From positions 1-64,000 of the forward strand of contig JAJCXO010000232.1 of NCBI GenBank assembly GCA_029263395.1: a stretch of DNA of 64,000 bases, in the 5' to 3' direction. A model generated the notes under the pieces. It searched no databases. It worked only from the letters and a program-made list of their open reading frames with translations, and was not told the origin of the DNA. Within the stretch, counting starts at the first letter, position 1; every line of letters starts with the position of its first letter. The position numbers were made by a program, and so were the translations under genes. The DNA comes from Acidobacteriota bacterium. GTDB lineage: Bacteria > Acidobacteriota > Thermoanaerobaculia > Multivoradales > J023. Shown piece after piece: positions 16,394-64,000 of this stretch.

Positions 16394-16421
16394 GGCTTCC
16401 TAACGACAATCGTCTTCAGTG

Positions 16422-25946: not shown

Positions 25947-26025
25947 ATCTTCGAGGACCGCGGAAAGCTTCCGTGGCGACCTCCTACTAACCCATCACGA
26001 TCAAGCTGCAACACGCTTGACGCCA

Positions 26026-26360
26026 ATGGAGCTCAACACGGCAAAGCACAACTTCGACTTTGCCGTGATGATGCTCAACATGGTCAAGCACAAGTTCGGC
26101 TTTACCTCGATGAGACTCAACGCGGCAAAGCACAACTTTGGCTTGACCTCGATGAGACTCAACGCGGCAAAGCGCACCTTCGACTTGACCCCAATGAAGG
26201 TGAATCCGGCAAAGCGCAACTTCGACTTGACCCCGATGAGACTCAACACGGCAAAGCACAATACGGCCTGACCTCGATGAGTCCCAACATGGCAAAACAC
26301 AACTTCGGCTTGACCTCAATGAAGTTTGATGCGGCAAAGCACAACTTCGGCTTTTGGTCG
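26026..26360. repeat. 8 x 42-bp tandem repeat array
   Basis: Eight units begin with ATG at 26026, 26068, 26110, 26152, 26194, 26236, 26277 and 26319. The spacing is exactly 42 except for a 1-bp deletion in unit six. On the plus strand each encodes 14 residues of the form M-R-L-N-x-A-K-H-N-F-G-L-T-S. An 81-residue frame runs 26026-26271 until the deletion causes a stop; units 7-8 continue in the next frame. The minus strand is also open through most of the array, so translation cannot be decided. It fills most of the 423-bp gap between the M14 and pirin genes. Confidence 0.9.
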
Positions 26361-26369
26361 AGGCGCGGC

Positions 26370-58824: not shown

Positions 58825-58952
58825 AGTTTGTCCTTTGAAGTCGGCTGGGAAGCTGGGTTCGTCGAAGGAATCTACAGCACCGGGTGCTCAACTGGCTTAC
58901 CATCGATTCTAGCTGCCGGCTAGGGTGGGTCGCAAACCAGGGAGGAAGGCTC

Positions 58953-59045
58953 CATGCTTGACCGAGTGCTTACCCCCGAGCGCCGCGTCTACCTAAGCTG
59001 CTCTAGACTCTTCGAAACTCGCTCGGGCATCCGAGGAAGCCCTTG
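58953..59045 (+). CDS. possible 30-codon ORF with a strong ribosome site
   Basis: A GGGAGGAAGG site sits about 5 bases before an ATG at 58953. The frame reads MLDRVLTPERRVYLS... for 30 codons to a TGA near 59045. It overlaps the PIN gene on the other strand. It may be a leader peptide, a chance ORF, or the start of a gene cut by the neighbouring toxin-antitoxin module. Confidence 0.3.
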
Positions 59046-59519
59046 ATCGTGCTTCCTAGTCAGAATGCACAACTGGTCGAAGGCATTCTGGCTGAGCCAA
59101 CCTCGATTCGAGAGATCCAGCCAGACATCGAAGGGATGTGCGACTCTTCCAACCCCGAGTTCTGCAAGTGCGGTCAATGTAGCTCTCTTGTCAGCACAGA
59201 CAAACACAGCATCAAGCCCATGCACCTGAGCCCAAGCGATGCTCTCGTGCTCCGCCAAGTTCGTGGTGGTTGTCGCGTCGCGATGCAGCGCCTTCAAGAC
59301 CTGTTCGGCCGGGTCTGAGGAACCGATCCGGATCTCGAACGTGTCGACAGTGGGCTGATCGTCGACACGATGCTCCAAGAGTGAACGATCGATGGCGGAC
59401 GCAGCCGCCGCTGTAGTCCCGGCCACTAGCAGGACACCTGCCTGCCAGTGAGCTAAAGTTGCTGGATCTACGATTTTCGCCAGGTGCCCTAAGGGGCCAT
59501 CATCTAGGATCCAGCGCAA
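58989..59519 (-). CDS. PIN-like ribonuclease toxin candidate
   Basis: 176 residues. The start must be the TTG at 59519, since it is the only start before the first acidic residues (WILDDGP). The acidic set D6/D7, E90/E92 and D110 (AEHES, FVCADKRA) fits a PIN-domain nuclease. The gap to the upstream XRE-ImmA gene is 1 bp. Pairing and gene order suggest the toxin of a toxin-antitoxin system. The PIN call is by motif pattern and needs structural confirmation. Confidence 0.65.
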   Translation of the reverse strand: MRWILDDGPLGHLAKIVDPATLAHWQAGVLLVAGTTAAAASAIDRSLLEHRVDDQPTVDTFEIRIGSSDPAEQVLKALHRDATTTTNLAEHESIAWAQVHGLDAVFVCADKRATLTALAELGVGRVAHPFDVWLDLSNRGWLSQNAFDQLCILTRKHDQGLPRMPERVSKSLEQLR

Positions 59520-59520
59520 C

Positions 59521-60669
59521 TCAACCCCAGGTCAAGATTTCGACTGCTCGTCCATGGGAAATCACACCTAGTTCGTGGGCCTCCCTTACGACCTGAGCCA
59601 AACGACCCCGGCATAACTCAGTGACCTCAAGATCGACCTCCGAAACACTGGATGCCGCCACTCGTGCTTGCTCGAAGTCGGTCTGCCAGTCTTGCACAAT
59701 CCCCGGATCCGAGACCAGACGATCCGCTGTCGCAGCCTGAATCAGACCACAGTTCTTGGCATGCCAAACCGCTCCTTGCCAAGAGAGCCCCCAACGCCTG
59801 GCTAAGGCGAGGATCTTCTGCCGTGGCTCACGCCACCGCATTCCTCGACCACTGCGGAACCAATGCCTGACCTCGTCAGGTGGAGCAAGGAAAGCTGGCG
59901 CGAAAGCTCGCGCTCGTTGCTCGACAAGGTCATCGACAGAGCTTTCCTTGCCACTCAGTTCCGCCGCGAGATCATGTTCCCCTGCATCATGCAGGAGGTG
60001 GCACAACTCGTGAGCCAACGTCGTTCGACGAGGCAGCGTCGACTGGACGCGAGGAGACGCCTGGTTGAGGAGGATCATCGGCAAAGCACCACCCTCCATC
60101 AAACTCGCGGCATCGACGCTCGACTGTGAAAAAGCAAGCGTGGCAATGTGGACACTGAAACCTTCCAGTGCGATCTGAAGATTCATGATCGGACCACCTG
60201 GAATCTTCAAACGGTGCCGAGCAGCAGCTCCAAGTCGGTAGCCTATTTTCCATGGTTCGCTACAGTCGTCAATCGGCAAGATCTGGCGAACTTTCGACAA
60301 CGTCAGGCCTCGCCCCAGCAAGCGATACAAATCGCCTCCGATTCGGCCTAGCTCAGCAGCCAAGGCCAAGGTCCGAACCTCTGAGACACCGCATCCTTGG
60401 ACGGCATCCGCAGCCTGTCGAAATCGTGCGATGGTGCGACCGGGATCCCCTTCTTCACCCCGCAAGAGACACCCGGGATCGACCGCCAACGCTTGAGCCA
60501 ACTGCCCGAGCTCGGCAACCGTGAAGCCATCCCCCGTCTCGATCTCCCGCCAGCGATTCGACGGCAAATCAGCCCAGATAGCCATCTGGTCGATCGAAGC
60601 GCCGAACGCCTCCCGTCGCAGACGTATCCTTTGTTGAATGGTGTGACTCATATCTTCAGTTCTTTCCAT
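59521..60669 (-). CDS. XRE-family regulator fused to ImmA/IrrE metallopeptidase
   Basis: 382 residues. The N-terminal helix-turn-helix (LRREAFGASIDQMAIWADLPSNRWREIETG) is of XRE type. The ImmA/IrrE (COG2856) domain has the zinc motif HELCH (H220, E221, H224). Such proteins in phage immunity and toxin-antitoxin systems act as DNA-binding antitoxins or cleave a repressor. The start may be 60669 or the ATG at 60651. The PIN-like gene follows 1 bp after its stop, so the two form an operon. Confidence 0.88.
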   Translation of the reverse strand: MERTEDMSHTIQQRIRLRREAFGASIDQMAIWADLPSNRWREIETGDGFTVAELGQLAQALAVDPGCLLRGEEGDPGRTIARFRQAADAVQGCGVSEVRTLALAAELGRIGGDLYRLLGRGLTLSKVRQILPIDDCSEPWKIGYRLGAAARHRLKIPGGPIMNLQIALEGFSVHIATLAFSQSSVDAASLMEGGALPMILLNQASPRVQSTLPRRTTLAHELCHLLHDAGEHDLAAELSGKESSVDDLVEQRARAFAPAFLAPPDEVRHWFRSGRGMRWREPRQKILALARRWGLSWQGAVWHAKNCGLIQAATADRLVSDPGIVQDWQTDFEQARVAASSVSEVDLEVTELCRGRLAQVVREAHELGVISHGRAVEILTWG

Positions 60670-60878
60670 GGCGGAGGCTCACAATAAGACAAGTTGGAGC
60701 CTATCAAACCCGACTTCCGAGACGGTGAAGACTTGAGGAGCCGAGTCCATCGACCCAGCCCCCTCATCCACCTGGCCTCTCGGCAACCCAGTCCTCGACT
60801 AGGATGAGGCGCCTATCCGCGTCTCCGATTCAATCAACACAACTTCACAGCACATAGCCCAGGGTTTGCCTGTTACAG

Positions 60879-61775
60879 ATGCTCAAGAACTACGTCGGCG
60901 AGATAGCGGGGTTGGGCGCCGCCTTGAGCTGGGCGGTCGCCTCGATCCTTTTTCGCCGCCTCGGGTCCGCAATCCCGCCGTTTGCTCTGAATCTCTACAA
61001 GGGCATTGCGGCCGTCGTGATGCTGGTTATTGCTCTCACCCTTCGCTCGGAGCTGTGGAGTGGAGTGGGTGCCCAGGCCTTGGTCCTGCTGGCGGTGAGC
61101 GGAGTTGTCGGGATCGGGATCGGGGATACCGCGTTCTTTGCAGCCCTCAATCGTATGGGCGAACGCCGTACCGTCTTGATGGCGGAAACGCTTGCTCCCC
61201 CGATCGCCACGATCATGGCGTTCATGGTGTTGGCTGAAATTCTGTCCGCTGCCAAGTTTCTCGGGATTGCCATCACCGCAGCCGGCGTGGCGTGGGTCAT
61301 TGTCGAGCAGACGCCCAAGATGACCGTTGATGCCTCTCAGCTGAAGTCGGGGATTGGCTACGGGCTGTTGGCCGCGTTCTGTCAAGCTGCCGGTGCTGTG
61401 TTGTCCCGGGCGGCACTGACGCAATCCGAGATTGGCCCGTTGTCGAGCGCGTTGATCCGCATCGTGGGCGGCCTCGTTTTCTTGCTGGTCTGGATGCCCA
61501 GCGCTGGCCACGCCTTTGTGCCAGAAGCGGTTCGTCGGGCAAAAACCTGGCGACTCTTGCTTCTCGCCACATTCCTCGGGACGTTCCTGGGCCTTATTCT
61601 TCAGCAACTCTCACTGCAAAACACCCAGGCAGGTGTTGCTCAAACGTTGCTCGCTACCAGTGCCCTGTTCATTTTGCCACTGGTTGTACTGCGGGGAGAA
61701 ACCATCAGCTGGCGTGCCGCCTTCGGTGCTGCCGTTGGGGCTGGAGGGATCGCATTGATCTTTCTGACTAAGTGA
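60879..61775 (+). CDS. EamA/DMT family transporter
   Basis: 298 residues with about ten TM helices and two EamA repeats (LGAALSWAVASILFRRLG and GYGLLAAFCQAAGAVLSRAAL). DMT exporters carry small metabolites such as amino acids or nucleotide bases. No regulatory site was identified. It is followed by the 84-bp-period array. Confidence 0.88.
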   Translation: MLKNYVGEIAGLGAALSWAVASILFRRLGSAIPPFALNLYKGIAAVVMLVIALTLRSELWSGVGAQALVLLAVSGVVGIGIGDTAFFAALNRMGERRTVLMAETLAPPIATIMAFMVLAEILSAAKFLGIAITAAGVAWVIVEQTPKMTVDASQLKSGIGYGLLAAFCQAAGAVLSRAALTQSEIGPLSSALIRIVGGLVFLLVWMPSAGHAFVPEAVRRAKTWRLLLLATFLGTFLGLILQQLSLQNTQAGVAQTLLATSALFILPLVVLRGETISWRAAFGAAVGAGGIALIFLTK

Positions 61776-61821
61776 AACACCGATCCCTAATCGTAGTGAA
61801 TCCACGGTAGGCCTGCGCAGG

Positions 61822-61847
61822 TATCGATATCGATATCGATATCGATA
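61822..61847. repeat. hexanucleotide microsatellite
   Basis: Four TATCGA units plus TA lie just downstream of the EamA stop. Confidence 0.9.
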
Positions 61848-61878
61848 ACGCGACTTCGTGTCATCAGCCAGTGATGAC

Positions 61879-62290
61879 CGTCCTCGACGAAACAGAGGAC
61901 CGCAATCACCGGCTGTAAACGCGAAGTGTTAATCCGACCTCGTATCATCAGCCACCGTTTGCCGTCCTCGACAAAACAGAGGACCGCAATCACCAGCTAT
62001 GAACGCAATGGGTTAATCGAACCTTGTCTCCACAGTGGGCTATAGGCCTCTTTGTCGACGTAAAGAACCGATATCTGGAACTGTAAACGCGAAGGAAAAA
62101 TCGAACCTTGCTTCTACAGTTGGAATTCAGAGTTCTACAGCATGAAATGGTCCGTCATCCGCCGCTGTGGACACGAGGGGAAAATCGAACCTTGCCTACA
62201 CAGTAGCGATTCCAACCTGATGAGCCAATCACAAGGTACCAATCACCACTGTGGACGCGAGGGAAAAATCGAACCTTGCCTACACAGTGG
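61879..62290. repeat. 84-bp-period repeat array, five copies, with hairpin cores
   Basis: The core ATCGAACCTTG (or ATCCGACCTCG) starts at 61932, 62016, 62100, 62184 and 62268, exactly 84 bp apart. Around the core are inverted repeats, for example AACTGTA/TACAGTT in copy 3 and CCACTGTG/CACAGTGG in copy 5, so pairing is kept while bases differ. Copies 1 and 2 also share a GTCCTC/GAGGAC hairpin (61880-61900 and 61964-61984). On the plus strand copies 3-5 also read as a 28-residue repeat with REGKIEPC, so either RNA structure or old coding sequence could be conserved. This fills most of the 603-bp gap (61776-62378). Confidence 0.85.
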
Positions 62291-62378
62291 CAATTTAGGC
62301 GGTTCTAGCGACAACAAGGCTCTCAGCGCATAAATTCTCTCAACAGGCCCTGCTGAGCGCTGATACACTCCTAGCGGA

Positions 62379-64000
62379 ATGCGCAGCCAGACGTTCTCGC
62401 CAGCTCGACAACCGCCATCGCTGGTCTTGATCTGTCTCACAGTCTTCCTAGTGCTGCTACCGCTCACCCTGTCCAAACCTGGGATCCCGGTGTGGCTAAA
62501 GGCTGACGAAGCGGCTTTTTACCTCGCTTCCCTGAGCCTCTGGCACGACGGCGACCTGGTATGCGACAACGGCGACACACGGCGCCTGTTTCGTGAATAT
62601 GCCGGCTCCGACAACCTGTTGTTGATGAGCAAAGGCCGCGGGCAGACGGTCTACTTCAGCATCCCGATCCTCTACCCATTGGTGGCGACGCCGTTCGTAG
62701 GTCTGTTCGGTGCCAACGGCATGGTCATGCTGAATGCCGGTCTGCTGATGGCCATGGTGTGGATGGGTGTCGCTTACCTTCGTCGCTACAACAGCGAGTC
62801 GCTGGCGATTCTTTTTGCCGGTGGCTTTTTCCTACTCAGTACCGCCTTCGTCTACGTCTTCTGGCTGCAGTCCGAAGTCTTCAACATGGCCTGCATCATG
62901 GCGGCGTTCTTCTTGATGACGCGGGTTGCTGACGGATCCAACCAGGTCATCGGCACACAGCGTTCGCAGCCTGATCCAGGGAGGAGTCGACTCGCCACAC
63001 ATGCCGCGGGCGCGGCGATGCTGTTGGCGATGGCGTGTTACAGCAAACCGATGCTCGGCGTGTTGGCTCTGCCGCTGCTCTATCTGCTGATCCAGCAGCG
63101 GTCGTGGCGCGGGCTGGTCTCCTTTGCCGCCGCCGGCTTGCTGACAGCCGGGGCTCTGACCGCCACTGCCTACACGCTCACCGAACAGATTTGGCCGTAC
63201 TTTGCACCCCGCGTCGGGATCAGCTTGACGAGCCCCGTCAACTACATCGAGCGCCGTATCGAACCACGCCTACCGAAAACAATGGGCGGCGCATCACCGG
63301 TTCACCAGATCGCTCGTAGCGGCAAGAAGGCCAAGGTCACCATGGCTGCCGTTGTCTCGGAATCGGCACCCGAGTTCCTATTCGGCAGGCATGGCGGATT
63401 TTTCGCTTACATGCCGTTTGCGGTGCTGGCGATCCTCTTCTTCCTCCTCCGTGAACGTCGCTCGGTTTTCCGATGGCTGATCCTGGTCGCTGCCGTGCTG
63501 GCGGCGGTGTTGTTCATCACGATGATTCGCGGCCAGTGGCTCGGCGGCGGCGGTTTCGTTGGTAATCGTTATTTCACGGCGGTTTATCCGAGCTTCTTGT
63601 TCCTGGTGCGACGGATTCATCCATCTTGGCTGACCGCTCTGGGTTACGCCGCAGCCGCCCTGTTCCTCGGCCCTCTTCTGCTCACGCCTCTCGGTGCCAT
63701 GGTCAACTATCCGACCCTGCAAGCGCACGCACGCAACCAGCCTCTAGCAGGGCTGCCGTTAGAATGGTCTCTAGCCCGCAATCTATCCGGCTATCGACAG
63801 ATCTCGCTGGCTGACGCCAACCTTCATGGCCGCCGCGACGAGGTTGTCGAGCAAGGCGGAGAACTCTGGATTCACGGCGCCAAACGCGTCGAGATGAACC
63901 TGCTCAGCCCACGTCAAGATCAGGGATTCGTCTTCGACGTCCGCAATCTGGCCCCGGGTAACACGATCGAGCTCTGTCTCGTAGAAGACTGTCGGCAGCT
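62379..64000 (+). CDS. membrane protein, glycosyltransferase-like (partial, cut by right edge)
   Basis: 540 codons are visible with no stop. The ATG at 62379 begins MRSQTFSPARQPPSLVLICL. About eight to ten TM helices follow (e.g. GLFGANGMVMLNAGLLMAMVW, LAILFAGGFFLLSTAFVYVFW), with a loop FPRLFREYAGSDNLLLM-like stretch and later a soluble part (GRRDEVVEQGGELWIHGAKRVEMNL). The fold resembles GT-C/PMT-type membrane glycosyltransferases, with an early acidic residue pair (KADEAAFYLASLS). The family assignment is tentative. It may use a lipid-linked sugar donor. Confidence 0.75.
   Translation, partial: MRSQTFSPARQPPSLVLICLTVFLVLLPLTLSKPGIPVWLKADEAAFYLASLSLWHDGDLVCDNGDTRRLFREYAGSDNLLLMSKGRGQTVYFSIPILYPLVATPFVGLFGANGMVMLNAGLLMAMVWMGVAYLRRYNSESLAILFAGGFFLLSTAFVYVFWLQSEVFNMACIMAAFFLMTRVADGSNQVIGTQRSQPDPGRSRLATHAAGAAMLLAMACYSKPMLGVLALPLLYLLIQQRSWRGLVSFAAAGLLTAGALTATAYTLTEQIWPYFAPRVGISLTSPVNYIERRIEPRLPKTMGGASPVHQIARSGKKAKVTMAAVVSESAPEFLFGRHGGFFAYMPFAVLAILFFLLRERRSVFRWLILVAAVLAAVLFITMIRGQWLGGGGFVGNRYFTAVYPSFLFLVRRIHPSWLTALGYAAAALFLGPLLLTPLGAMVNYPTLQAHARNQPLAGLPLEWSLARNLSGYRQISLADANLHGRRDEVVEQGGELWIHGAKRVEMNLLSPRQDQGFVFDVRNLAPGNTIELCLVEDCRQ

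Follow-up and report, generated by a model that had tools for sequence, protein, structure and literature searches.

The MIRU/VNTR-type minisatellites of mycobacteria are intergenic repeats of tens of bp found at many loci, and MIRU units share sequence across loci. The sopC centromere of the F plasmid is a single array of 43-bp tandem repeats with inverted repeats and has a dedicated ParB-type protein. REPs, which in mosaic arrays form BIMEs, are short intergenic palindromes that occur many times per genome, mostly at gene 3' ends or in convergent gaps (PMC3733652). They normally have one sequence genome-wide and a GTAG or CGTC tag, the GTAG type being accompanied by RAYT transposases (PMC3733652, PMC3116915), and their inverted doublets, REPINs, are thought to be moved by RAYT and can form tandem clusters (PMC3116915).

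Here we describe a tandem array of palindromic modules in a window of 64,000 nt, which is the whole stretch of DNA analysed, from an Acidobacteriota genome of 10.7 Mb in 291 contigs (the source genome). A lag scan (61815-62336) supports the array, and the features discussed below are as follows.

60879-61775, plus strand: EamA-type transporter gene, 54 nt upstream of the array
61822-61847, no strand: TATCGA microsatellite, adjoining the array and reaching into the 5' arm of its degenerate first A unit
about 61829-62298, plus strand: array with an 84-bp period, hairpin modules A and B alternating
61913-61951, plus strand: module A copy, hairpin with 14-bp arms and an 11-nt loop
61954-61994, plus strand: module B copy, with a GTCCTC..GAGGAC inner stem
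61997-62035, plus strand: module A copy
62081-62119, plus strand: module A copy
62165-62203, plus strand: module A copy
62249-62287, plus strand: module A copy, the last of the array
62379-63998, plus strand: long ORF downstream of the array, without a Pfam match, running off the window
26015-26362, no strand: second array of the same class, about 8 copies of 42-nt hairpin units

The sequence-only reading had placed five core copies at exact 84-bp steps between 61879 and 62290, and the steps were confirmed, with the cores at 61931, 62015, 62099, 62183 and 62267 all on step. The array is longer than that reading had it: a sixth, degenerate core lies at 61847, directly past the microsatellite, so that six core copies span 61847-62267. 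TRF independently scored the 84-bp array, and three exact core matches and one with two mismatches were found inside it, where 0.5 would be expected over the window as a whole. The 84-bp unit is composed of two different modules of about 42 nt that alternate head-to-tail, hairpin A (39 nt with an 11-nt loop; typical form from homologous loci CTGTGGAAGCGAGG-GAATAATCGAA-CCTTGCTTCCACAG) and hairpin B (41 nt; typical form from homologous loci GGTGATTGGGCTTCTTGTCGACCGACAGAAGCGATATCACC). The A copies of the window array are 36-79% identical to one another.

As that reading had anticipated, a relative and other parts of the genome contain further copies. Homologous A/B arrays were detected at C285, C141, C47 and C63, of which C141 and C63 are cut by contig ends, and B-type arrays with a 41-43-nt period were found at 14 further loci (C148, C265, C234, C225, C208, C172, C92, C46, C4, C35, C135, C30, C272 and C37). 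The B element was matched in only 2 of the 119 genomes searched, the source genome and G001 of the same genus, and a search of 84,980 GTDB species with the B core pattern returned only the sister species, Acidobacteriota MAG OFTM268.

We then took a census of such arrays by an unbiased self-similarity scan at lags of 15-139, with genes called by a simple codon-usage script. In 860 kb of sampled contigs, about 8% of the source genome, 17 of the 22 intergenic arrays with a period of at least 20 had a period of 42-43 or 82-84, which extrapolates to roughly 200 arrays of this kind genome-wide. All nine intergenic arrays in 447 kb of the sister species had a period of 41-43 nt, two of the nine being on contigs picked for their B arrays; both genomes are fragmented, the sister genome into about 950 contigs. 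The remark that 84 bp is twice the period of the second window array (42 bp) is borne out at class level, most intergenic arrays of the genome sharing a 42-nt unit. The samples from six other genomes were small and drawn from contig starts (608 kb from G002, G006, G003/G004 and G010/G011), and they yielded no arrays with a period of 41-43 or 82-84 and one with a period of 40. Among the genomes checked, only this genus had the class of palindromic arrays of about 42 bases. A separate class is formed by short tandem repeats of 15-18 bp, which occur in the window at 16421, 36826, 44609 and other positions and which the census also showed to be common between genes in both genomes.

Pairwise similarity between arrays was detected only within a group comprising A, B and C30, with a weak link to L144, and within a group comprising L168, L170 and L136. 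Several families had no detectable similarity to either group, including that of the second window array, which has homologous arrays at C80, C248 and C184. Common descent of all the families is thus no more than a possibility. Within the window array, the divergence between cores that had been noted from the sequence was borne out: the B slots were 18-47% identical, except slots 1 and 2 (84%), and some B slot pairs were no better than shuffled sequence, yet every step was exactly 84. At C272, two unit types that differ in sequence succeed one another without a change in the 42-nt step. The exact steps despite the divergence, together with the period common to otherwise unrelated families, suggest that unit length is held more tightly than unit sequence. 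At 10.5 bp per turn, 42 and 84 nt correspond to four and eight turns, and the idea of eight helical turns (84 = 8 x 10.5) fits a length constraint, but the class also has units of 41 and 43 nt, which leaves exact helical phasing a conjecture. We only tentatively entertain a genus-wide ruler, in which unrelated arrays would keep to about 42 nt through a DNA-binding protein or enzyme that reads or writes the spacing and not the sequence.

These arrays resemble REPs and BIMEs in consisting of short intergenic palindromes, many per genome, in lying chiefly at 3' gene ends or in convergent gaps, and in their mosaic organization, in which different modules alternate as A-B in the window array and as A-B-B-A at C47 and C141. 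They differ from both in forming several families without detectable mutual similarity that share one unit length and run head-to-tail, and the Y1 genes inspected here showed none of the association typical of REPs. In the A and B alignments, inspection revealed no terminal tag that was constant and unpaired. With REPINs and their tandem clusters they share tandem hairpin-forming units that include flanks (PMC3116915), whereas the unit here is about 42 nt and dispersal by RAYT is unsupported. MIRU/VNTR repeats likewise stand in tandem between genes at many loci, with units of tens of bp, but the array sequences here are not shared across loci. The likeness to sopC lies in a similar period and an inverted repeat inside the unit, and the difference in the many arrays of differing sequence. 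Unlike in CRISPRs, which have near-identical repeats and unique spacers, whole units here repeat and diverge. Literature searches for such arrays in Acidobacteria returned the REP paper only, and one for a 42-bp description returned nothing.

All of the 33 arrays examined were intergenic. Convergent gaps were in excess (15/28 arrays versus 40/306, p = 2e-6), also in a less biased census restricted to gaps of at least 200 nt (7/21 versus 29/268, p = 0.008). The second window array sits between a zinc carboxypeptidase gene and a pirin gene that converge on it, and the first is flanked by the transporter gene and the ORF without a Pfam match. In the sister species G001 (C373), the ortholog of this downstream ORF is preceded by one B slot and by two A units at a spacing of 84 bp. 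A block of about 3 kb (58848-61775: a 176-aa ORF, an IrrE/HTH protein and the EamA transporter) is missing there, its place being between an acetyltransferase gene and the array. Further orthologous arrays were found at C92/C363 and C21/C900. Since arrays occupy orthologous sites in the sister species, they can be old and can stay in place by inheritance.

A coding ancestry had been thought possible from a REGKIEPC-containing repeat in the plus frame of copies 3-5. This frame is carried through these copies because 84 bp is 28 codons; it is open over copies 3-5 only, with stops in window copies 1-3, and it has stops in every A/B array translated from elsewhere (C285, C47 and C141). The in-frame stops, together with the 41- and 43-nt periods in the class, contradict coding ancestry, and a coding repeat was rejected on the stops. 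The 63-aa ORF matched no Pfam family.

At L094 (C46:18694-18978), a Y1 (IS200-like) transposase match without the first 20 profile positions adjoins a B-type array. An integron integrase match (TIGR02249, over the cut-off) at L110:1240-2101 (C272) is split over two frames. The 43-nt array at L154:6464-6674 (C282) has near-perfect hairpins whose ends, ATCTAAC...GTTAGAT, match the attC core consensus. The Y1 transposase genes at L127, L128 and L130 have GC-rich hairpins nearby, with CCCAGGGT...ACCCTGGG occurring in both L128 and L130; these are possibly the REPs of this genome.

The sequence-only reading took it as the mark of a conserved structure that the arms pair in each copy and change together, which would fit a structured non-coding or cis-regulatory RNA family whose hairpins are kept by selection. 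The arms do pair, and two-sided changes exist, as in the arm pairs that it had cited (AACTGTA/TACAGTT versus CCACTGTG/CACAGTGG) and between copy 3 and copy 5 (e.g. A-T to G-C); folding energy in the window array is also very low (z to about -10). As a mark of conserved structure, however, the covariation did not survive a larger alignment, an outcome that this reading had itself named as refuting it. In 17 A copies from two species, 75.5% of cells were paired versus 74.9% in shuffles, and the covariation score was 0.137 versus 0.126, a value of 0.137 being reached by 131 of 500 shuffles. RNAalifold returned no pairs for B and 10 pairs for A, none with any two-sided change. When all B types were pooled, own arms paired slightly better than swapped arms (p = 0.001), an excess that within types was marginal in M2/3 (p = 0.04) and absent in M1 and M4. 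Selection at the RNA level should favour G.T over A.C mismatches on one strand, but in hairpin arms the two were similarly frequent in the A/B arrays (32 versus 41) and in the other arrays (43 versus 56), giving no sign of such selection. Many arrays fold strongly on both strands, and the better-folding strand varies between homologous arrays with no consistent preference. With covariation at chance and G.T no more frequent than A.C, the inverted repeats are more aptly regarded as DNA palindromes passed on by descent than as a covarying RNA. An Rfam search of the window gave no match, and a conserved structured RNA family, which we consider very improbable, was rejected. The arrays at L158, L168, L169 and L208b fold little better than shuffled sequence, so that the term hairpin array fits most members of the class and not all. 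Intrinsic terminators were rejected as well (one terminator-like site versus 0.5 expected).

Mobility by Y1 (RAYT) transposases or, with the units as attC-like sites, by an integron integrase would make the arrays non-autonomous mobile elements, and we consider this poorly supported and very improbable. It is favoured by the truncated Y1 gene beside the C46 array, a Y1 fragment that follows an array-like region on C140, the integrase match 1.6 kb from the C272 array and the gene blocks beside arrays that differ between species. Nevertheless, the hairpins in the inspected flanks of Y1 genes are different ones, only 1 of 26 arrays (L154) shows the attC core pattern RYYYAAC..GTTRRRY, and at least three arrays are at orthologous sites. 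A RAYT/REPtron was rejected on the five best Y1 loci, several of which have other hairpins nearby, with arrays near two truncated or partial Y1 genes only; integron attC was rejected on the single array with core sites. The main rival, somewhat unlikely in our estimate, is neutral duplication with a preferred length: a mutational mechanism with a characteristic length of about 42 nt, such as hairpin-mediated slippage or template switching, would duplicate intergenic palindromes in tandem without any function. It would agree with the absence of covariation, the intergenic location and the array-specific sequences with apparent homogenisation within arrays, as at G001 C363, where both central units carry the same AAATGCG change. 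On the other hand, window units that have diverged to near-random identity still have exactly the same length, although indels would be expected under neutral drift, and arrays persist at orthologous sites between species that are about 75-80% identical.

Taken together, we put the probability at roughly 0.6 that the window array is a member of a genus-specific, REP/BIME-like class of mosaic tandem palindromic arrays, built of hairpin modules of about 42 nt whose unit length is constrained. Local tandem duplication, together with conversion inside the array, would drive the growth and turnover of such arrays while unit length stays at about four helical turns, and the arrays would work at the 3' ends of genes irrespective of direction, on transcripts or on supercoiling. 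As RNA, their hairpins may define or shield the 3' ends of the two transcripts that converge there; alternatively, the arrays may offer phased palindromic DNA sites to a dimeric DNA-binding protein or gyrase, by analogy with BIMEs, for which a role as gyrase or protein sites has been proposed and whose traits include binding of gyrase, IHF or Pol I.

Known REP families are defined by a common sequence, and a fixed length across unrelated array sequences departs from that. If selection or a measuring enzyme maintains this length, the genus would be a natural system, with about 200 arrays per genome by extrapolation, in which one could ask what makes intergenic palindromes of bacteria form arrays and which role their spacing has at gene ends.
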